64,000 nucleotides of DNA, taken from positions 90,258 to 154,257 of the forward strand of contig LR991653.1 of the NCBI GenBank assembly GCA_905171695.1. The letters are read 5' to 3'. Below, one piece after another: positions 17,167-57,426 of this stretch (within the stretch, counting starts at the first letter, position 1; each line of letters opens with the position of its first letter). A program made the translations under genes and the position numbers. This DNA comes from Candidatus Methanoperedentaceae archaeon GB37 (GTDB taxonomy: Archaea; Halobacteriota; Methanosarcinia; Methanosarcinales; EX4572-44). The notes beneath the pieces are model-generated. The model made no database searches. It worked only from the letters and a program-made list of their open reading frames with translations, and had not been told where the DNA came from.

Positions 17167-18183
17167 TTATTCACCTTCTTTTTCGGATGAAGTAAAATCG
17201 AAGAGAAGATATACAGGTATTACATACTCTTTATTAGCTTTAATAGTAATATTATCCAATTCTATTGGTTTATATTCATTATATGCTAGGTCCGTTATGT
17301 ATAATTTCGCCGATAGTTTCATAGGAGTCGTAGAAACTTTGATAGCATTAATAGCATCCATAAAGATTATTTTATTCTCGTATACTGTTCTTAAATAAAT
17401 TAGAAAACTCTCTAACTCAGTTACAATTGATATATTTTTGAGATAAGATGTTAAGATTACATTGGCGAAGTCTCTGAGAAAAACCTCATCTTCCTCAAAA
17501 GCATTTAATAATCCATTAAATAATATTTTTAATTTTTCAAGTTCATCTTTTTTAAATATAGGGGGATTTTTTCCCATTTCAACAAATCCAACCAATAATT
17601 CATTATATTCCGGAAATTTTACTCTAAGTTTTGATGCTTTCCGCTCTACATCATCCCAGAAATTCTTTCTAAATTCTTCAATTCCCATAGGATTAAAAAT
17701 TTTTATATCTGAGCTATCAGAACATTCCAATCTCAATATCGCAGTTCCTCTGCCCCTATTTGCAATTTTTATTTTATTAGATATGTTTATTATATTTTGG
17801 TCTCCTAAAACTTCAAGTGATATGTGGTTGGGTGCCTCATATAGAGTTATATCCGGTCTAAATAGAATTATAGATTTTTTCTCACTATAAATAATCTGAT
17901 TATTTTTATAAATAGATATATCTACATCTTTTTTAGTACTAGGCTCATTTAATTTAGATATAAATTTAATGCCCAAATATCCATTCACATCTACTTTATC
18001 AACATAAAGAATGTTATCTTTCAATCTGAAATTTCCTTCACTTACATTGTAAATTTCTTTAATTTCTATCTCTTCCGAATATTCAATCTCTATTAAATCA
18101 ATATTTTCAGAACGCTCCCAGAGTATGTATAATGGAATTTCAGACCCTTGAAGTGAATGTATGGGCAAATACACATTTATCAT
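17167..18183 (-). CDS. Unknown protein, first gene of AT-rich pair
   Basis: 338 residues, unrecognised. Residues 1-160 look beta-rich (MINVYLPIHSLQGSEIPLYI, LIEIEYSEEIEIKEIYNVSE, NISNKIKIANRGRGTAILRL), like an immunoglobulin-type or arrestin-like sandwich. Residues about 165-270 are helical (FWDDVERKASKLRVKFPEYN, ELEKLKILFNGLLNAFEEDE). The C-terminus returns to strands. No catalytic motif, signal peptide or membrane helix is evident. It is first in a two-gene operon. Upstream lie direct and inverted TTCGTATAT repeats that could be its operator. AT-rich like its partner. Confidence 0.6.
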   Translation of the reverse strand: MINVYLPIHSLQGSEIPLYILWERSENIDLIEIEYSEEIEIKEIYNVSEGNFRLKDNILYVDKVDVNGYLGIKFISKLNEPSTKKDVDISIYKNNQIIYSEKKSIILFRPDITLYEAPNHISLEVLGDQNIINISNKIKIANRGRGTAILRLECSDSSDIKIFNPMGIEEFRKNFWDDVERKASKLRVKFPEYNELLVGFVEMGKNPPIFKKDELEKLKILFNGLLNAFEEDEVFLRDFANVILTSYLKNISIVTELESFLIYLRTVYENKIIFMDAINAIKVSTTPMKLSAKLYITDLAYNEYKPIELDNITIKANKEYVIPVYLLFDFTSSEKEGE

Positions 18184-48836: not shown

Positions 48837-50372
48837 GTGCGAATGGCTGATGAAATTACTCCTAATGGAGTTATTATCACTGATTCGTCATCAGACGACG
48901 ATGAGGTTATGCTGCCACACTTTGCAGTGCTTGGGAGTGGTGGGATAGGTTCTGCCGTTGCCAAGATACTTGAAGAGCAGGATAAGAGACTGATACTTGT
49001 CGATCTCGATGAGAAGAAGGTTGAAACGCTTCATGAGCAGAACTTCAATGTCATTCTCGGTGATATCTCAAAGTTTGAGACGATCGAGGGTATTCCCAGG
49101 GACGAGCTTAAAGCTGCCTTTGTACTGAGTGCGTCGGTTGATGTGAACATGAAGGCTATCATGCACCTGCGAAAACTCCTCCCAGATATTATTATAGTAA
49201 GCAGGGCTGACAATCCTGCTGATAAGGAGAGACTTGAGTCGGCTGGCGCGGATATCGTGGTGATACCATATGGTCAGAGACTGAGAGCCATTGCAGCCAC
49301 GATGATCGAGCAACTTGAGATCTTCGCGTTGAGCAGAAACGTATATAACCTGATACGAGAGATTGAAGGCGTGGGTGAGGGGACTCTTGCAATTGTGACC
49401 CATACCAATCCAGATCCTGACGCGATCGCGAGTGCAGTCGCATTAAAAGAGATCGCGGCAAGCGTGGGCGTGAATTCGAGCTTAATCTTTGGGGGTGTTG
49501 TTGGGCATCGTGAGAACGAGGCTTTTGTGAATCTCCTGAACTTCGATGTTGAGCCGACTAGGGTATTTCACCCAGCAGAGTACAGTAAGATAGCACTTGT
49601 TGACTCTTCGCAACCAGGTATCAACAACCTTCTATCGCCTGATACGAAGGTGGATATCGTAATTGATCACCACCAGGTTGATAGGAGCCATGTCTCTGGG
49701 AAACATGTTGATATTCGCCCGGATGTCGGTGCCACTGCAACGATACTCGCTTTTTACATGAGAGAGCTTGGAATACCATTGAGCACTGAGATTGCAACAG
49801 CACTGATGTATGGCATTCGAGTGGATACAAACGATTTCAGGAGGAATACCAGTCCAGTGGATTTCATGGCTGCTGCCTTCCTCCATCCCCATGTTGATCA
49901 TGAGCTGATAGAGAAGATCAGTACGCCCTCAATCTCTACCGAGTCGCTCGACGTCCTCGGCGATGCGATCCAGAACCGGGTGATCTATGGCAGTTATCTG
50001 ATATCGAACGTCGGCTTTATTCGTGACAGTAGCTCGCTTGCACGAGCAGCTGATTGTCTCCTGAACCTTGAGGGCATCACCACAACACTCATCTTTGGCA
50101 TAGGTGCGGACAAGATATATATCTCGGGTCGAAGCCGTGATGTGCATGTTAATATCGGTAAATATATGAAGGATGCCTTTGGAGAAGAGTATGCTGGCGG
50201 TCACGCAGCTCTTGGGGCAGCCCAGATACCACTCGGCATCTTCAGCGGCACCAAGGACAAGGACGCGCTCTTGAAGCTCTGTGACGAAGCTGTGGTGAAG
50301 CGCTTCCTGCGCGTGGTCGGCTTTGACAACCAAAAACCGTTCCAGGTTCAAAGGAGTCTAAGCAAGAGTTGA
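48837..50372 (+). CDS. RCK (TrkA-N) - DHH phosphoesterase fusion
   Basis: 511 residues. A TrkA-N dinucleotide-binding domain (about 28-150; FAVLGSGGIGSAVAKILEEQ) is joined to a DHH/DHHA1 phosphoesterase: VTHTNPDPDAIASAVAL (motif I), the D-S-S-Q and VIDHH (motif III) blocks, and GGHAALGAAQIPLG at the C-terminus. Archaeal and bacterial relatives degrade nanoRNA, pAp or cyclic dinucleotides; the RCK part implies control by nucleotide or by a linear/cyclic signal. The start used is GTG at 48837; an ATG two codons later is also possible. It overlaps moaA in TGATG. Confidence 0.85.
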   Translation: MRMADEITPNGVIITDSSSDDDEVMLPHFAVLGSGGIGSAVAKILEEQDKRLILVDLDEKKVETLHEQNFNVILGDISKFETIEGIPRDELKAAFVLSASVDVNMKAIMHLRKLLPDIIIVSRADNPADKERLESAGADIVVIPYGQRLRAIAATMIEQLEIFALSRNVYNLIREIEGVGEGTLAIVTHTNPDPDAIASAVALKEIAASVGVNSSLIFGGVVGHRENEAFVNLLNFDVEPTRVFHPAEYSKIALVDSSQPGINNLLSPDTKVDIVIDHHQVDRSHVSGKHVDIRPDVGATATILAFYMRELGIPLSTEIATALMYGIRVDTNDFRRNTSPVDFMAAAFLHPHVDHELIEKISTPSISTESLDVLGDAIQNRVIYGSYLISNVGFIRDSSSLARAADCLLNLEGITTTLIFGIGADKIYISGRSRDVHVNIGKYMKDAFGEEYAGGHAALGAAQIPLGIFSGTKDKDALLKLCDEAVVKRFLRVVGFDNQKPFQVQRSLSKS

Positions 50373-51712
50373 TGGACACTCTTCTCGTTGACAGATATGG
50401 GCGCAGGGTGAAGAGCCTTCGAATCGCTCTCACAAAGAGGTGCAACCTCAGATGCATCTACTGTCACGGCGAGGGCGAAGCAGAGAATAGGTCTAATAGG
50501 TCTGTTAGGGAGATCGATCCCACAACCATACACACCCTTGCAGAGGTTGCAGTGAAGCATGGTGTGGAGAAGATCAAATTCTCAGGTGGAGAACCACTCC
50601 TGCGGCGTGATCTGCCCGATATACTCAGTGATCTCCCCGATCTGAAGGATGTCTCGCTAACAACCAACGGCACGCTCCTCTCAAAGAGAGCAGAGGATCT
50701 TGCCGATTCCGGGCTTGACCGGGTGAACGTCAGCCTCGACACACTCCGCCCAGAGGTCTATCGTCTGATCACTCAGACCAACCGAGACTATCACACCAAG
50801 GTATTGGATGGGATCCATGCAGCGATCTCTGCAGGACTCACCCCGGTCAAGGTGAACATGGTCCTCCTCGGTGGTCTGAATGATTCTGAGGTGTGGGATA
50901 TGGTGGAGTTCACAAGAGGGTGCGGTGAAGAGGTGATACTTCAGTTAATCGAACTCATGAGCTTTAAAGGGCTTCCAGAGAGAGTGGTTGAGGTTGATAT
51001 GAACGAGATCGAGAAGAGACTGGATGAGAAGGCTTCGCACAGCGTTGAGCGAGAGATGCACAGACGGAGAAAGTACTACATAGACGGTGCCGAGGTCGAG
51101 CTCGTCAGGCCAATCGACAACTCCACCTTCTGCCAGAACTGTAATCGGCTCCGTGTAACATCCGATGGAAAACTGAAGACCTGCCTCCTCCATAATGAGA
51201 ATCTCATAGATATCAGGGGAAGAAGAAGAGGAGAAATGGAAAAACTGCTCCAAGAGGCTGTCTTGAGACGAGAACCATACTATAAGCCAGAAGAAGAGAT
51301 TGAGAGGCAAGGCTTATGCTGCAGAGTGAACTCGAACAGCTTCCTCTTAGAGGACCTTGGAGGAGGCATCTACCCAGAGATAATACCAGCCAATCTGACC
51401 ACTGGCGCAATAGTGATAGCAGAAGAGTCCTGGCACACTAGCCGGGATCTACGAAGCTTCACAGGTCTTCAACCACTTCGACGTCGAGGTCGTATCGATG
51501 GTTGGCGACTGGCACGAGTGTTGAAGCTGGAACCACCATACTCGAGGTGTCAGGTCCCTGCTAACGGGATATTAAAGTCAGAGCGGCTCGCACTGAACTT
51601 CATCGGCAGAATGAGCGGAATTGCAACCCTCACCCACCAATGCAAAGAACTTGCAGGCGACGTGATCGTTGCTGGCACAGAGAAAGACCACGCCTGGTTT
51701 TCGCAAATTTGA
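50372..51712 (+). CDS. moaA: GTP 3',8-cyclase MoaA, reading frame extended by frameshift
   Basis: The first ~310 codons are MoaA: VDRYGRRVKSLRIALTKRCN with radical-SAM C-x3-C-x2-C (CNLRCIYC), KIKFSGGEPLLRRDL and the C-terminal cluster in FCQNCNRLRVTSDGKLKTCL. It makes cyclic pyranopterin precursor of molybdopterin or tungstopterin. MoaA proper should stop near REPYYKPEEE (about 51300), where a TGA lies in another frame at 51301-51303. The frame instead runs into nadC sequence and ends at 51712, so codons after about 310 are not MoaA. The start is the ATG overlapping the upstream stop. Confidence 0.8.
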   Translation: MDTLLVDRYGRRVKSLRIALTKRCNLRCIYCHGEGEAENRSNRSVREIDPTTIHTLAEVAVKHGVEKIKFSGGEPLLRRDLPDILSDLPDLKDVSLTTNGTLLSKRAEDLADSGLDRVNVSLDTLRPEVYRLITQTNRDYHTKVLDGIHAAISAGLTPVKVNMVLLGGLNDSEVWDMVEFTRGCGEEVILQLIELMSFKGLPERVVEVDMNEIEKRLDEKASHSVEREMHRRRKYYIDGAEVELVRPIDNSTFCQNCNRLRVTSDGKLKTCLLHNENLIDIRGRRRGEMEKLLQEAVLRREPYYKPEEEIERQGLCCRVNSNSFLLEDLGGGIYPEIIPANLTTGAIVIAEESWHTSRDLRSFTGLQPLRRRGRIDGWRLARVLKLEPPYSRCQVPANGILKSERLALNFIGRMSGIATLTHQCKELAGDVIVAGTEKDHAWFSQI

Positions 51713-52139
51713 AAAGAAAGCAATAATACTCGGAGGCGGCGACCCACACCGATACAACCAATCAGATACCGTGATGATAAAGGATAACCACATCAAACTC
51801 ATGGGACTCGAAGCAGCAATTGCAAATGCGAAGATGGTAGCAGGATTCACACGCAAGATCGAAGTCGAAGTAGAGAACGCAAGTGACGCAGTGAGAGCAG
51901 CAGAACTCGGAGTGGAGATCGTCATGCTCGACAACCGCACGCCACACGAGATAAGAGAGATCGTTCACATCCTCAAGAAGAAGGGTCTGCGCGAAAAGAT
52001 CATACTCGAAGCATCAGGCGGAATCACACCCACAAACATCGAAGAATACAGAGAGACAGGAGTCGACGTCATATCGATCGGCAGCCTGACACACAACGCA
52101 CCATGGCTCGACGTAAGCCTCACAATAACCAACGAATAA
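51316..52139 (+). pseudogene. nadC: Nicotinate-nucleotide pyrophosphorylase NadC with several indels
   Basis: The NadC start (ATG at 51316, MLQSELEQ) and its family sequence can be traced across three frames: LLEDLGGG, then PEIIPANLTTGAIVIAEES, then fragments out of frame (AGIYEA, FDVEVVSMVGD), GILKSERLALNFIGRMSGIA, CKELAGDVIVAGT; the catalytic C-terminal part from about 51669 is clean (KAIILGGGDPHRYNQSDTVM, IMIKDNHI-like, VISIGSLTHNAPWLDVS). At least five single-base changes fall in 51340-51700. NadC makes nicotinate mononucleotide from quinolinate. Since NAD synthesis is essential, a local run of sequencing or assembly errors is plausible. Confidence 0.7.
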
Positions 52140-53098
52140 CACCTAAGAAGAATACCAACTTCGCTCAACTATTAGAAGTTAGATGTGATCTTTGATACCA
52201 CAATCAAGACAACACTTCCCACATCCAAAGGAATGATGCTCCGATCACCTATGGGCACCCGGATGTTACCACAAAACTTTTAAGAAAAGTTTCATCAAAA
52301 TGCTTCACAGCGTTTGCAATCGCTCCCAGTCACTTGAGCATGCTGCTTACGTTGTAAGCAACTCTCGATCACGAAGTAATCGCGAACATAAAGCCATGCT
52401 TTACATGCTAAAACAAAGCCTTTATACACCAAAAACGCTAACAATCCATGTACCATGCCGTCCAGGCCGAGGCATATTATATTTGTGGAGGGGTGACGGG
52501 GCGAATGCACTTTATGCAGCCGATCTGAAACCATGGGCAATTGGTGTTAGGGTGGTGTTAGGGCTGCTGCCTGCTACCTACTGCATCGCTTCGATGAAGC
52601 GATTGATGCCGCTGATCGAGCTTTGGAGATTGAACCAAAATGGTCCATTCCACGCGAAGCCCGCGCTCTTTCATGCTATCGGTTGGGGTGCTTCGACGAG
52701 GCTGTATCTGACGCTCGTGTCCTTTCGGCTGCCGATCCAGATAATGTAGCTGCTCACAGAATCCTGCGCAACCTTTGGTTTCATGATCTGTGAATGATAG
52801 ATAGTCTAATGAAGGGTGGCGTGACTGGGGCTGGGCTTCGGGGGGATGGTGTGATGGATGTGGGGGCCGGGTTGGTCGCGTGGTGAATCGGATAATGGAA
52901 ATATACGAAATTTCTTAGACTGAAAAGGTTTATATTCTATTAATGTACGGGGAATGTACGGGGGTTTTGGGACAAAATTCAACTAATCCTTGACAATGAT
53001 CACATATGCTCTCCACTCAATATACCTCTTTGGTACATCAACTTTTGCTGAATTACCGAAAGGTAATCAATTAAGAATAATTTTATGTGATTCTCTCT
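52140..53098. other. Gene-poor stretch with a TPR fragment
   Basis: About 960 bases. One identifiable piece is a TPR fragment at 52557-52792. A direct repeat GGTGTTAGGGTGGTGTTAGG lies just before it, and GTACGGGG repeats at 52944-52962. AAAGGTTTATATTC at 52925-52938 resembles a TATA box but drives nothing I can see. Neither strand has a supported full gene. Confidence 0.4.
52557..52792 (+). pseudogene. TPR-repeat protein C-terminal fragment
   Basis: In the frame ending at 52792: LHRFDEAIDAADRALEIEPK, PREARALSCYRLGCFDEAVS, then DPDNVAAHRILRNLWFHDL and TGA. These are two TPR units of a larger protein. Upstream in this frame a TAG interrupts, with no start codon, so the N-terminal part is lost or out of frame. 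Confidence 0.45.
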
Positions 53099-53677
53099 TT
53101 ACCAGAAGTTTCCCTTGTATTGTCCGATTGCAGGGCAGCCGAGGCATCGATCGTTTTTGTATAAGGAGCAGTCCTTGCATTCGGTCTTTATTCCGCAGGG
53201 TTGTTTTTTAACCCGTTTGATGTGCATCTTGATGGGTGTGATCAATTCTTTTACTGTGCTTATTATTATGTTGAACTCGACGCTCACGACTTCTTCGAGG
53301 GGTCTTATGTGTCCGTTCACGATCGCTTCGAGTGTTGGTATCTCTTCGCCTGCGAAGAGTAGGCAGACGTTCTTCTTGCCTGATGTGATGAAGCCGTTTA
53401 GAAAGTATGGGCAGTCTATGAATCTGTTGATCAGTTCTTCGGTGTCTGTTGTTACGACTTCTACTTTAGCTATGTGGAGTCCCAGTTTTGTTGGAGCTAT
53501 CCCGCACTGTTTCTCGATTGCGCCCATCTTCTTCAGTTTTTTAAGCCGCATTGCGACAGAGGGTTGGGTGAGTCCGATCTTCTCTGCGATCTTGTGTTGT
53601 GAGATCTCAGGGTTCTCGATTATGTGTGTGATTATTTCACGGTCTTTTTGGTCTATTCTGAATTCCCTCTCTATCAT
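53099..53677 (-). CDS. Lrp/AsnC-type regulator with C-terminal cysteine cluster
   Basis: 192 residues. The N-terminal winged helix (residues 8-55: QHKIAEKIGLTQPSVAMRLK) is of Lrp/AsnC type; the middle (70-145) is a RAM-like ferredoxin fold; the last 35 residues carry C161-x5-C167-x2-C170-x7-C178-x2-C181, a likely Fe-S or zinc site. This tail is unusual for Lrp proteins and could sense redox state. It is divergent from the sulfite-reductase-like gene, 262 bases away, with an operator-like palindrome between them; control of that operon is the obvious guess. Confidence 0.8.
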   Translation of the reverse strand: MIEREFRIDQKDREIITHIIENPEISQHKIAEKIGLTQPSVAMRLKKLKKMGAIEKQCGIAPTKLGLHIAKVEVVTTDTEELINRFIDCPYFLNGFITSGKKNVCLLFAGEEIPTLEAIVNGHIRPLEEVVSVEFNIIISTVKELITPIKMHIKRVKKQPCGIKTECKDCSLYKNDRCLGCPAIGQYKGNFW

Positions 53678-53740
53678 TTTACCTGACGTCTATTCTTTCC
53701 AGACTATATTTCAACCTTTCGATAATATAACATGTAACCA

Positions 53741-53760
53741 ATTATCCTATATATTATAAG
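53741..53760 (-). promoter_or_regulatory. Candidate TATA box of the regulator gene
   Basis: On minus, CTTATAATATATAGG lies about 70 bases upstream of the regulator start codon. It gives a leader of about 45 nt if transcription starts 25 bases downstream. Confidence 0.35.
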
Positions 53761-53768
53761 CAAAAGTA

Positions 53769-53807
53769 CTATATATAATAAAATCGTTCTGTTGTCAGTG
53801 ACGTCAC
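53769..53807 (+). promoter_or_regulatory. Candidate promoter with palindromic operator of the redox operon
   Basis: CTATATATAAT (53769-53779) is a good archaeal TATA box. The perfect palindrome GTGACGTCAC (53798-53807) lies about 25 bases from its centre, on the expected transcription start. A dimeric repressor binding here would block initiation. The divergent Lrp-like regulator is the obvious candidate. Confidence 0.45.
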
Positions 53808-53816
53808 GCAACCAGT

Positions 53817-53859
53817 CTAAGGGACCACGATGTCAGCCCGCTAAGGGTCCCTCTAAGGG
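53817..53859 (+). repeat. CTAAGGG direct repeats and leader hairpin
   Basis: CTAAGGG occurs at 53817-53823, 53841-53847 and 53853-53859 (spacings 24 and 12). AGGGACC (53820-53826) and GGTCCCT (53846-53852) can pair as a 7-bp stem around a 19-nt loop. All lie in the presumed 5' leader of the sulfite-reductase-like mRNA, about 80-125 bases before its ATG. Confidence 0.5.
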
Positions 53860-53939
53860 TGTGTGTCACGGTCGTCTCATAGAGTGGTTGCAGAGAGACG
53901 TTGTAATACCAGATAGAACGGGACGGAGGATAATAGAAT

Positions 53940-54611
53940 ATGTCAGATGAGAAGAAGGATGATCTGCCAGAGAAAGGTGCAATCGTACAGCAGGATTATG
54001 AAACCTATGCGATAGCGCCTCACATCCCAGGAGGAGTATGTGATCCTGCAACACTGCGAAAAATAGCGGACGTTGGGGAGAAGTATAACGCAAAGGCTTT
54101 GAAACTGACCTCTGCACAGCGAATAGCCATCGTTGGCATCAGAGAGGAGGATATTGACGACGCATGGCGCGATCTTGGAATACCGCCAGGCCATGCAATT
54201 GGGCTCTGTGTGAGAAGCGTAAAATTCTGCCCAGGAAGAACATTCTGCAAGCGAGGAAACCAGGATTCGGTGAAACTTGGACTTGAGCTTGACAAGCGGT
54301 ATCACGGAACGGTTCTGCCATCGAAGTTCAAGATCGGTGTCTCAGGCTGCACCAACTGTTGCGGCGAGTCATGGATAAAGGACATGGGCTTCATCGGAAC
54401 GCCAAAAGGCTGGAACGTCGTTGTTGGTGGGTGTGCCGGGGCAATTCCATCGATTGCTGAGGTGATAGCAGAAGACCTGAGTGATGACGATGCCATCGCA
54501 CTGGCAGATAAGATCATAAGCCACTACAAGAATTGCGATACCAAGAAACGTCTGGGCAGATACATCAAGAAAATTGGGCTTGAGGAATTCAAGAAAGATT
54601 TAGGACTATAA
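53940..54611 (+). CDS. Small sulfite-reductase-like sirohaem protein
   Basis: 223 residues with ferredoxin-like and sirohaem domains of the nitrite/sulfite reductase family. Residues C97-x5-C103 (FCPGRTFC) and C137-x3-C141 (GCTNCCGES) are the ligands of the sirohaem-[4Fe-4S] pair. It is half the length of assimilatory enzymes and lacks a second repeat, matching the small Dsr-like proteins of methanogens. The true substrate (sulfite, nitrite or other) is unknown. A strong GGAGGATAAT precedes the ATG by six bases. First gene of an operon with a cupin and an octahaem cytochrome. Confidence 0.88.
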   Translation: MSDEKKDDLPEKGAIVQQDYETYAIAPHIPGGVCDPATLRKIADVGEKYNAKALKLTSAQRIAIVGIREEDIDDAWRDLGIPPGHAIGLCVRSVKFCPGRTFCKRGNQDSVKLGLELDKRYHGTVLPSKFKIGVSGCTNCCGESWIKDMGFIGTPKGWNVVVGGCAGAIPSIAEVIAEDLSDDDAIALADKIISHYKNCDTKKRLGRYIKKIGLEEFKKDLGL

Positions 54612-54665
54612 TAATAAATAGTATAATAGTGAAAAAGTGGTTGGCAGTGCAAGAGAGGTTATATT

Positions 54666-54992
54666 GTGGAGATAATAAAACTTGAAGATAAAGAGTCTTT
54701 CAAACCTGACTCGAAGAGCGTTGTACAACTGATCGATGAAGACTACCTCCAGTTGAACATGATCTGCCTTGAGGCAGGACAGGAGGTTCCATATCACAAC
54801 GCAAACTCGAATGTGAGCCTCATGGTCGTGAGGGGCGAGGGGGAATTGGAGCTTGCGGGCGAAAAAGAGCGATTGGAGCCTGGTAAAATTTACCGGGTTC
54901 CGTTCAAAATCAGGATGAGAATCGTGAACGACACAGACAATAGACTCTCTTTCCTCGTATTTAAAACTCCAAATCCAAAAGAAATGATATAA
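54666..54992 (+). CDS. Cupin-domain protein
   Basis: 108 residues: an RmlC-type cupin barrel (CLEAGQEVPYHNANSNVSLM, VVRGEGELELAGEKERLEPG, VPFKIRMRIVNDTDNRLSFL). One metal-binding His (H60-region, PYHNAN) is seen, but the second motif lacks the usual His pair, so metal binding is doubtful. The GTG start at 54666 follows the first gene by 54 bases. It may bind a small ligand or assist the redox proteins on each side. Confidence 0.75.
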   Translation: MEIIKLEDKESFKPDSKSVVQLIDEDYLQLNMICLEAGQEVPYHNANSNVSLMVVRGEGELELAGEKERLEPGKIYRVPFKIRMRIVNDTDNRLSFLVFKTPNPKEMI

Positions 54993-55024
54993 TATATAAT
55001 AAAAATTATAAAATAGGTGATGAG

Positions 55025-56395
55025 ATGAAAATTAATCCATTTCTGTCTCTAATCTTGCTTTTAACAGCCGTAACAAGCATTGCAGCAGCATCAGAGTGTA
55101 CGGACTGCCACAGCACCACCACACCGAAGATCGTTGAAGACTTCAAGAAGAGTACGATGGCAGATGATCTTGACTGCGCAAACTGCCATGGATCCGCACA
55201 CACATCTGACGATGACGCAGACGAGGCTAAACTACCAACCCCTGATACCTGCGCTCCATGTCACAACATACAGAAGACCCAGTTCATGAAGGGCAAACAC
55301 AGCATCGCATGGGCAGCACTCTTTGCACCACCAACAACCACTGATCAGCCAAAAGAACTCATGGAAGGGCAGAAGGGTTGTGGAGGCTGCCACAAAATCG
55401 GAGTAAAGAACGAAACAGGCTGGGAAGAGTACGAGTACGGCACAGCAAGCTGCGATAACTGCCATACGCGCCACAGCTTCTCGGTAGAGGAGGCAAGAAA
55501 GCCTGAGGCGTGCCTGCCATGCCACCAGGGATTTGACCATGCACAATGGGAGATGTACTCAACATCGAAGCACGGCGTGATCTACCAGACAGAAGGTGAT
55601 ACGTGGAACTGGAGTCTGCCACTCAGTGAAGCAGGAGACGAGTACACCGCTCCAACGTGCCAGCTCTGCCACATGCCAGATGGAGACCATGGAGTGATCA
55701 CAAGCTGGGGCTTCCTCGGTGTCAGGGTTGAAGAGCCAGATGAGGAATGGGCAAGTGACCGCGTATCTATACTCAAGGCGTATGGCGTCCTTGATGCAGA
55801 GGGAAATCCAACGCCACGATTCGATCTCGTGGGTGCTGCGAAGCTTGCACGACTCACGATGGAGGAATGGAACGCTCCAAGAGAAGAGATGATTGCAACG
55901 TGCAGTGACTGCCATTCTGAGACGTTTGCAAGGAACTCACTCGAAGAAGGCGACCATCTCCTGAGAGAAGCTGACAGAATCTATGCAAGCTCGATCGAGA
56001 CCGTTGCAAGCCTCTACAGCGATGGGATACTCCCAGAGCCTGAATACATCGACGAGCTACCATCATACCCCTACCCAGATGTCCTGAGATTCTACGACCA
56101 GGCAACACCGATCGAAGAAGACCTCTGGCTCATGTGGATGGAATACAGGATGCGAACATTCCAGGGAGCATTCCATGCAAACCCAGACTACGCACAATGG
56201 TACGGATGGGCGCCACTCAAAGAGACCGCAGTGCGAATCAAAGCAGAAGACAAGCGGCTCAGAGCCGAAGCAGCAGGTTCAAAAGAGAGAACAGGTGAGA
56301 GAAGAAGCACCAGAGAGAGTCCAGGATTTAACGCAATCCTCGGAATCCCTGCAATACTTGGACTGGTTCCACTCCTAAGAAGAAGGGGCGGATAG
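55025..56395 (+). CDS. Octahaem cytochrome c (HAO-like) with PGF-type sorting tail
   Basis: 456 residues. Signal peptide at 1-22 (PFLSLILLLTAVTSIAA). Eight CxxCH sites: CTDCH, CANCH, CAPCH, CGGCH, CDNCH, CLPCH, CQLCH and CSDCH, in the order and spacing of the hydroxylamine-oxidoreductase-like multihaem family (the HAO-type motif SKHGVIYQTEGDTWNW is present). The last 26 residues, SPGFNAILGIPAILGLVPLL then RRRGG, are a PGF-CTERM-type signal recognised by archaeosortase, implying lipid anchoring to the outer face. The catalytic crosslinking Tyr of HAO cannot be confirmed here. Likely reductase or oxidase of nitrogen or sulfur oxides, or an electron conduit. Confidence 0.88.
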   Translation: MKINPFLSLILLLTAVTSIAAASECTDCHSTTTPKIVEDFKKSTMADDLDCANCHGSAHTSDDDADEAKLPTPDTCAPCHNIQKTQFMKGKHSIAWAALFAPPTTTDQPKELMEGQKGCGGCHKIGVKNETGWEEYEYGTASCDNCHTRHSFSVEEARKPEACLPCHQGFDHAQWEMYSTSKHGVIYQTEGDTWNWSLPLSEAGDEYTAPTCQLCHMPDGDHGVITSWGFLGVRVEEPDEEWASDRVSILKAYGVLDAEGNPTPRFDLVGAAKLARLTMEEWNAPREEMIATCSDCHSETFARNSLEEGDHLLREADRIYASSIETVASLYSDGILPEPEYIDELPSYPYPDVLRFYDQATPIEEDLWLMWMEYRMRTFQGAFHANPDYAQWYGWAPLKETAVRIKAEDKRLRAEAAGSKERTGERRSTRESPGFNAILGIPAILGLVPLLRRRGG

Positions 56396-56439: not shown

Positions 56440-57426
56440 TTATCTGAATAAAATCCCAAGAAGACCGTGCCATCTCTCTATCGTGGGTGTGAAGTAGATC
56501 ATCGCTGCCACAAGTACGATCAGTATCATTGATGCTCTCAGGACGAGCTTCACACTCTCTCCAATATCCTCTGGTCGTGGTGGAGGAGCACTGGCGTTCA
56601 GGATGTAAGCGCCCGGTTTTTCAAGCCTCACTCCGAGAGCGCCCGCTGCTGCCGCCATTGGCCACCCCGAGTTTGGGGATGGTGTCTTCTCGTGCTCAGA
56701 GCGCGCGCAGTTCAGTGCTTCCACCCGGCGCTTGGTTGCGGCTGCAAGGATGATGATTATCGCTGATATGCGGGCTGGGATGTAGTTCAGGATGTCGTCG
56801 AGTTTTGCCGGCAGATAGCCGAGATTCTGGTAGGGTGGTTCCATGTACCCGATCATGGAGTCGATCGTGTTCACTGCTTTATATGCAAGAGCGCCAGGCA
56901 GCCCGAGCAGTGTGAAGTAGAAGAGCGGTGAGAGTATGGTGTCAAGATAACTTTCAGAGACTGATTCTATCACTGCAGATGTTGTTTTTTCTTCATCGAA
57001 TCCCTCTGTCTCTCTGCTTACAAAGATGGGTAGTTTTGACCGTGCAGAGTCGATATCACCCCTTTCAAGTTCTTCTTCTACTCTTTTTGCCTCTCCAGTT
57101 AGCATCTTTATCGAGAAGGTTGACTTCAGGAGATAGATGGATAGAAGGATGCCAGCGATCCCGGCGAGTGTGAGTGAATCATTCGCCTCCAAGAGATAGC
57201 CTGCGATGGTGAAGGGTGCTGCGGTCAGGATCACAATGATCACCCCCCAGAGTCTTTGATGGTTCTCTATACTGTGCTCTTCGAGTGCTGCTATGATCCT
57301 TCCCATCCAAACCACCGGGTGCATCCTCTTCGGTGGTTCACCGATCAAGAGGTCGAAGAGCACTGCTCCAAGAAGTATCCCTGCTGGTAGGGTGTTCACA
57401 GGAGTGGCTCCATCACACGTTTCCAT
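56440..57426 (-). CDS. cbiB: Adenosylcobinamide-phosphate synthase
   Basis: 328 residues, membrane enzyme: LLGAVLFDLLIGEPPKRMHP, HPVVWMGRIIAALEEHS, KAVNTIDSMIGYMEPPYQNL and SPNSGWPMAAAAGALGVRL are the CobD/CbiB signatures. It attaches aminopropanol phosphate to adenosylcobyric acid. About five membrane helices. It overlaps the end of the upstream aminotransferase-like decarboxylase gene (31 bases), which makes the aminopropanol phosphate: a matched pair. Confidence 0.92.
   Translation of the reverse strand: METCDGATPVNTLPAGILLGAVLFDLLIGEPPKRMHPVVWMGRIIAALEEHSIENHQRLWGVIIVILTAAPFTIAGYLLEANDSLTLAGIAGILLSIYLLKSTFSIKMLTGEAKRVEEELERGDIDSARSKLPIFVSRETEGFDEEKTTSAVIESVSESYLDTILSPLFYFTLLGLPGALAYKAVNTIDSMIGYMEPPYQNLGYLPAKLDDILNYIPARISAIIIILAAATKRRVEALNCARSEHEKTPSPNSGWPMAAAAGALGVRLEKPGAYILNASAPPPRPEDIGESVKLVLRASMILIVLVAAMIYFTPTIERWHGLLGILFR

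Follow-up and report, generated by a model that had tools for sequence, protein, structure and literature searches.

The 64-kb window analysed here (64,000 nucleotides of Candidatus Methanoperedentaceae archaeon GB37, contig LR991653.1, positions 90,258 to 154,257) contains, between positions 53,099 and 56,395, four genes encoding an Lrp/AsnC-type regulator (P0001), a small sirohaem-[4Fe-4S] protein (P0002), a cupin (P0003) and an HAO-family octahaem cytochrome c (P0004). The best reading of this locus is a horizontally exchanged module of reductive defence against nitrite, nitric oxide (NO) and hydroxylamine, comparable in its working to the HcpR regulon of bacteria, although its regulator is unrelated. 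That the locus is an inducible reductive-defence operon against these nitrogen oxides (N-oxides) is, in our judgement, fairly probable. A broader proposal, to which we give somewhat less than an even chance, is that it represents a new archaeal N-oxide stress regulon, in which a cysteine-cluster Lrp-type sensor would control an outside/inside pair formed by an HAO-family cytochrome and a CCGES-type sirohaem protein, exchanged among alkane-oxidising archaea and interchangeable with HCP, carbon monoxide dehydrogenase (CODH)-type, flavodiiron and Fsr modules. The clustering of genes at this locus is more than chance: the families recur together in other genera and families. The features of the locus are the following:

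53099..53677, minus strand: Lrp/AsnC-type regulator P0001, 192 aa, with an N-terminal winged helix-turn-helix (HTH) and a RAM-like middle
53135..53197, minus strand: C-terminal cysteine cluster of the regulator (C161, C167, C170, C178, C181), a probable metal or Fe-S site
53724..53781, no strand assigned: conserved promoter/operator element, a 36-bp motif in two overlapping registers with a repeat of ~22 bp
53808..53891, plus strand: long imperfect hairpin, with 28-nt arms, 75% complementary, and CTAAGGG(A/T)CC repeats
53940..54611, plus strand: small sirohaem-[4Fe-4S] reductase P0002, 223 aa, of alSir / group I Dsr-LP type, NirB-like, CCGES variant
54666..54992, plus strand: small cupin P0003, 108 aa, GTG start
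55025..56395, plus strand: HAO-family octahaem cytochrome c P0004, 456 aa, with eight CxxCH motifs, a signal-like N-terminus and a PGF-like C-terminal tail
55535..55540, plus strand: D171-H172 codons of P0004, equivalent to the catalytic Asp267-His268 of HAO
56321..56392, plus strand: PGF-like C-terminal anchoring tail of P0004, assigned by eye

Gene content of the operon and its relatives

The four genes show the content and order claimed in an earlier sequence-only reading of this DNA. The regulator is oriented leftward and the other three genes rightward, with an intergenic region of 262 bp between the regulator and the sirohaem protein gene, and gaps of 54 bp between the sirohaem protein and cupin genes and of 32 bp between the cupin and cytochrome genes. 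Since the downstream neighbour, a CbiB-like gene (56440-57426), is convergent to the cytochrome gene, the latter is the end of the operon.

P0004 shows eight CxxCH motifs and a match to PF13447, which place it among the octahaem cytochromes of the HAO family. Its best PDB matches belong to the same family: 6h5l (E=4e-37), which we take to be the complex of HAOr (kustc0458) of Kuenenia, and the Nitrosomonas HAO 1fgj (E=2e-34); down to E=1, none of the PDB matches is to the octahaem sulfite reductase MccA or the tetrathionate reductase OTR. In the phmmer alignment, Asp267-His268 of HAO correspond to D171-H172 of P0004, and both residues are invariant in 98/98 aligned octahaem homologues. The position of the cross-linking tyrosine of the oxidative, P460-type HAO/HDH enzymes (Tyr467 in N. 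europaea HAO) is occupied by Q391, or by W392 if the gap is moved, and across the aligned homologues column 391 contains T, Q, L, H or F and never tyrosine. P0004 thus combines the Asp-His pair with absence of the tyrosine, as do the reductive HAO-like proteins (HAOr, epsilon-HAO), and because the cross-linking tyrosine is missing it is predicted to be reductase-type. Members of the family devoid of this tyrosine are predicted to be reductive, which in one case was shown (PMC12758564, PMC11897245), the tyrosine-less HAOr (kustc0458) being a nitrite reducer (PMC11897245; PMC12758564). The tail of P0004, SPGFNAILGIPAILGLVPLLRRRGG, is PGF-CTERM-like by eye, in agreement with the PGF-type tail that had been assigned to an HAO-like octahaem protein here, and NCBIfam gives no match for this short motif. 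In an unrooted tree with bacterial relatives, the octahaem cytochromes of alkane-oxidising archaea form one supported group, and their distribution in Methanosarcinales is patchy (33/186 genomes).

P0002 contains a NIR_SIR domain (E=2.3e-30) and a ferredoxin-like half-domain (1.3e-14). Both cysteine pairs of the sirohaem cluster are present, as previously claimed (C97-x5-C103 and C137-x3-C141), together with an additional C140. Its best NCBIfam match is NirB (E=6.7e-51), with a score below the whole-protein cut-off of that model, as expected because P0002 is a single-domain protein. With about 220 aa, both cysteine pairs and no extra ferredoxin (Fe-S) domain, it belongs to the alSir / group I Dsr-LP proteins, which reduce sulfite biochemically and have an unclear physiological role (PMC6286981). 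The motif SGCxxCCGES is shown by all ten octahaem-linked sirohaem proteins of this family (SiR): those of nine loci with an octahaem gene at <=6 kb, including L079, and that of L307, from the group f20. Other Methanosarcinales SiRs mostly show [ST]C[AS]E at the cluster motif. CCGES is not exclusive to octahaem loci, being also found in five ANME-2c SiRs and one f12 SiR (L327) with no octahaem gene in view, and in the SiR tree the CCGES set lies on one side of a branch (98/89). On a metagenome-assembled genome (MAG) contig titled Deltaproteobacteria (L079:9180-11257) a CCGES-type SiR gene is directly 5' of an octahaem gene, so the pair is also bacterial; no SiR relative was found in viral contigs.

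SiR genes also show other contexts. In three ANME-2c-type contigs (L003, L004 and L012), genes encoding PGF-tailed 7-haem cytochromes adjoin SiR or SiR-cupin genes, and L012 has two tandem SiR copies. Loci of the group f10 (L308-L328) show a second conserved context without octahaem gene: a flavodiiron protein, an IscU-like scaffold and a radical-SAM-like protein, the last two labelled by eye only. In most f10 loci the flavodiiron gene is 5' of the SiR gene, either adjacent or with one small gene between them, and a rubrerythrin gene adjoins SiR in f1, f4 and f6 loci. The cupin P0003 (Cupin_2 match, 1e-7) shows 28% identity to the ANME-2c cupin and 82% to the cupin of the f20 genome G207. In most of the Methanosarcina-type loci examined, SiR is followed by a cupin of the CUPb family, so this pairing probably predates the link to the cytochrome.

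Most relatives of the operon come from draft MAGs whose contigs are fragmentary, their genes being mechanical open reading frames with homology labels, and shared ancestry lowers the independence of the recurrences. Seven contigs of ANME-2, Argoarchaeum and GoM-Arc1 contain an octahaem gene (65-72% identity) with a SiR gene (58-62%) 0.5-6 kb away, usually preceded by a gene for a DUF2249-like protein and close to one for a rubrerythrin or a cupin. The closest relatives of the operon lie outside the order, in two genomes of one genus of the family f20, G259 and G207. G259 (L246) shows the regulator (75%), a flavodiiron protein, SiR (88%), the octahaem cytochrome (85%, in two pieces because of a frameshift), rubrerythrin, the ferredoxin FrdX and DUF166. 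G207 shows the regulator (74%), an 88-aa protein, a CooS-type CODH (TIGR01702, above cut-off), the cupin (82%), the octahaem cytochrome (80%), FrdX and a cupin. Because these identities exceed the highest ones found in Methanosarcinales (<=67% for SiR and <=48% for the regulator), exchange between lineages is the simplest account of the similarity. In f10, which is ANME-1-like, the regulator is followed by HCP, octahaem cytochrome and DUF2249 genes (L008/L247), and in G264 (L254) by genes encoding HCP and an Fsr, by sequence a coenzyme F420-dependent sulfite reductase of group I or II. Methanoperedens-like genomes show, in nearly all cases, the regulator divergent from FrdX; in four of them a CODH-octahaem pair follows the regulator, with CBS and HPP membrane genes in three (L175-L177), these not being in view in the fourth (L178). 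HPP proteins serve in cyanobacteria and plastids as transporters of nitrite. A second type of octahaem-sirohaem pairing, which points towards sulfur, is found in G072 (L185:163-2783) and G041 (L107:3-2403): a distant octahaem cytochrome (32-36%), after which come genes for a TusA-like protein and a Dsr-LP of group III type. The sequence-only reading had made joint occurrence of the four genes in a related genome a test of the operon idea, and the outcome is partial: each of the two f20 genomes combines three of the families at 74-88% identity, but the complete set of four was seen in the window alone.

Regulator and promoter element

P0001 shows an AsnC-type HTH domain match and an Lrp/AsnC fold by Foldseek; its model combines an N-terminal HTH with a RAM-type alpha/beta fold, consistent with an Lrp/AsnC protein, at a pLDDT of 60 and with a low-confidence, unreliable C-terminal tail. 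The five clustered cysteines that the sequence-only reading had described (161, 167, 170, 178 and 181) are confirmed, and four of them are conserved in all of the aligned regulators (6/6). The intergenic palindrome of that reading is also real, and sits within an element conserved 5' of regulator homologues, which supports the proposed link between both; P0001 would bind this intergenic element. The shared element and the recurrence of the families elsewhere likewise sustain the idea of an operon.

A log-odds matrix for the 36-bp element, trained on Methanoperedens regulator intergenic regions only, was run over both strands of the window. Its top score is elsewhere, at 17527, and ranks 2 and 3 are at 53746-53781 and 53724-53759, minus strand; the score at the regulator-SiR intergenic region is above that of all 200 first-order resamplings of this region. 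A profile built from Methanoperedens alone gave no significant nhmmer result, its match in the right place having E=19. A sequence-only covariance model, which included the f20 and window sites, so that these are not independent, finds one significant place in the genome of the window (E=0.0025), at this operon and not at a CODH gene; in Methanoperedens it finds untrained sites directly 5' of several CODH genes. Weaker matches (E above about 0.003), mostly beside unrelated genes, were taken as noise, and the element was not found at the f10 regulators L247 and L254. The element is located 5' of genes encoding CooS-type CODH in Methanoperedens (L295-L304), and at L296:2879-6714 a CODH-octahaem pair is divergent from a cupin gene. 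The Methanoperedens sites suggest a wider CODH-containing regulon in this genus. The element overlaps AT-rich core promoters, and promoter conservation may contribute part of the signal; a sigma-70 promoter scan was uninformative for an archaeon.

The hairpin at 53808-53891, which probably belongs to the 5' leader of the operon transcript, is single-copy in the genome, with a z of only -1.9, and has no Rfam match; the Rfam scan of the whole window gives two tRNAs only. Next to the locus, at 50369-52139, a MoaA-like frame passes into NadC/ModD-like sequence, the rest of which is in a different frame (51669-52139, by eye), possibly by a frameshift or sequencing error, and at 52300-52793 a TPR-like sequence is divided between frames and has, by eye, the appearance of a decayed gene.

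Function of the operon

Outside the cell, the tethered octahaem cytochrome would draw electrons from the membrane or multihaem pool and, at its free haem next to Asp171-His172, would reduce nitrite, NO or hydroxylamine, the reductive direction being expected from the missing tyrosine cross-link. Inside the cell, the small sirohaem-[4Fe-4S] protein would reduce entering nitrite or hydroxylamine with low-potential electrons, with the cupin as its putative accessory, binding a metal or small ligand. The regulator would sense redox or nitrosative stress through a cysteine-bound metal or Fe-S site and control the operon from the conserved intergenic element. This scheme is built on the gene content, the recurrence of the cluster, the pattern of catalytic residues, the promoter element and its sharing with Methanoperedens CODH/octahaem promoters; the substrates, electron donors, effector and direction of regulation we infer. 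Homologues of the regulator adjoin or precede genes of classical N-oxide and redox defence (HCP, flavodiiron protein, rubrerythrin, FrdX and Fsr), and HCP, FrdX and the NorV-like flavodiiron protein are characteristic members of the N-oxide regulons of bacteria (PMC545781, PMC1274295). Judged by homology, the gene set of the relatives (HCP, NorV-like flavodiiron protein, FrdX, rubrerythrin, Fsr, SiR and reductive octahaem cytochrome) is one of defence against N-oxides and related oxidative stress, and this set, with the HcpR parallel, leads us to read the operon of the window as a compact version of it. The group II Fsr of ANME-2c reduces nitrite and hydroxylamine with F420H2, and not sulfite (PMC9295563), which shows that N-oxide reduction is within the reach of sirohaem enzymes in archaea of this kind. 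Of the functions guessed at in the sequence-only reading, handling of nitrite or hydroxylamine (or sulfite) is favoured by the HCP, flavodiiron, Fsr, FrdX and rubrerythrin genes of the relatives, but electron export has no support in the neighbours.

Several points weigh against a defence operon for N-oxides. The N-oxide substrate role of the proteins is a predicted one, and should the host be the ethane oxidiser that it resembles, its habitat is a sulfidic, anoxic sediment with little nitrite. Neither HCP nor a match to the DUF2249 partner is found in the genome of the window, and in Methanoperedens the commonest gene associated with the motif encodes CODH, not a classical N-oxide enzyme. The SiR family is present in 177/186 Methanosarcinales genomes, most of them without the octahaem cytochrome; the bacterial octahaem relatives are mostly solitary, and no conserved neighbourhood was found in the bacterial loci examined. 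Furthermore, the literature presents alSir as a sulfite reductase (PMC6286981), and members of HAO clade I have been suggested to act on sulfur compounds (PMC9213671).

These last points lead to the handling of sulfur oxyanions, in which SiR would be a sulfite reductase of assimilation or detoxification, the octahaem cytochrome would reduce sulfite, thiosulfate or tetrathionate outside, and the regulator would respond to sulfite or the sulfur redox state. Sulfite reduction is a known activity of the alSir/group I Dsr-LP proteins, whose expression in ANME is high (PMC6286981), HAO clade I is proposed as a reducer of sulfur species (PMC9213671), the presumed habitat is dominated by sulfate and sulfide, and G072 and G041 show the octahaem, TusA and Dsr-LP arrangement described above. 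We consider this the less likely account, given that the PDB search of P0004 shows no octahaem sulfite or tetrathionate reductase, that relatives have HCP, flavodiiron protein, rubrerythrin and FrdX as partners, and that the ANME-2c Fsr tested is a nitrite reductase with its native donor (PMC9295563). The CooS-type CODH genes 3' of the regulator in G207 and Methanoperedens, and the motif sites directly 5' of several CODH genes, would fit instead a regulator responsive to CO or Fe-S status, with CODH, FrdX and cytochromes under its control and the octahaem cytochrome as an electron outlet or inlet and not an N-oxide reductase. This is improbable, as the genome of the window has a single Prismane/CODH-family frame (844 aa), distant from the locus, and its sole significant motif site at this operon and not at a CODH gene; in f10 the same slot is filled by HCP, a CODH homologue of different function, and flavodiiron protein and rubrerythrin are unsuited to a CO regulon.

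Even more doubtful is a role in extracellular electron transfer, with the anchored octahaem cytochrome as a further conduit to a syntrophic partner and its neighbours as incidental. Ethanoperedens, if it is the host as inferred, expresses many cytochromes for syntrophy (PMC7175092), and 7-haem cytochromes are encoded near the locus in ANME-2 relatives, but the catalytic Asp-His is kept in all homologues, needless for a pure conduit, and the partners in relatives are stress reductases. A chance neighbourhood of unrelated genes, which the variation of gene order and strand between genera and the commonness of SiR might suggest, is very improbable given octahaem and SiR genes within about 6 kb in seven archaeal contigs of several genera and one bacterial contig, the close f20 versions including the regulator, and the shared promoter element.

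HAO-family proteins beyond the ammonium-oxidising clade are found in 65 phyla, mostly without known function, with nitrogen or sulfur substrates an open question (PMC9213671). This operon links the octahaem and small sirohaem families to one regulator whose relatives are beside known NO, nitrite and hydroxylamine defence enzymes, which gives a concrete, assayable prediction. If N-oxide defence is the true function, two widespread protein families with unsettled roles would acquire one, and alkane-oxidising archaea, whose Mcr is nitrite-sensitive (PMC9295563), would have a route of protection.

Comparison with known systems

The sequence-only reading knew of no described system of this composition; the composition is indeed undescribed, but a functional analogue exists in the bacterial HcpR regulon (PMC545781, PMC1274295). 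In Desulfovibrio, Clostridium and other bacteria, this regulon links one regulator to HCP, FrdX, a sulfite/nitrite-reductase-like gene and coo genes; in Desulfuromonas a cytochrome c gene adjoins frdX, in D. vulgaris HcpR controls a coo operon, and nitrite induces hcp-frdX (PMC545781, PMC1274295). HcpR belongs to the CRP/FNR proteins and has palindromic sites of CRP/FNR-like type, whereas P0001 is not of this family: it is Lrp/AsnC-type, carries its cysteine cluster at the C-terminus and is associated with an AT-rich element unrelated to those sites. Moreover, HCP and FrdX adjoin regulator homologues in the relatives, but are absent from the operon of the window, whose genome has no HCP.

Reverse-HURM nitrite ammonification of Nautilia profundicola reportedly combines an HAO-family octahaem cytochrome outside with a cytoplasmic, hydroxylamine-reducing HCP. 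The likeness is an octahaem cytochrome outside plus a cytoplasmic reducing enzyme, but here the small sirohaem protein takes the cytoplasmic place, the locus shows neither Nap nor a HaoC-like quinol dehydrogenase, and the presumed function is defence, not respiration. HAOr of Kuenenia (kustc0458; PMC11897245, PMC12758564) shares with P0004 the HAO family, eight haems and the lack of a tyrosine cross-link, but the sequence match is only moderate, and P0004 has a PGF-like anchor and a different operon. P0002 resembles alSir / group I Dsr-LP (PMC3448663, PMC6286981) in its length of about 220 aa and its single sirohaem-[4Fe-4S] unit without a ferredoxin cluster domain, and differs in the CCGES variant and in the octahaem cytochrome gene of its operon. 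FNiR (group II Fsr) of ANME-2c (PMC9295563) is also a sirohaem N-oxide reductase of an alkane-oxidising archaeon, and an Fsr is encoded in the HCP operon of the regulator in G264; FNiR is a two-domain F420 enzyme, whereas P0002 is small and stands alone.

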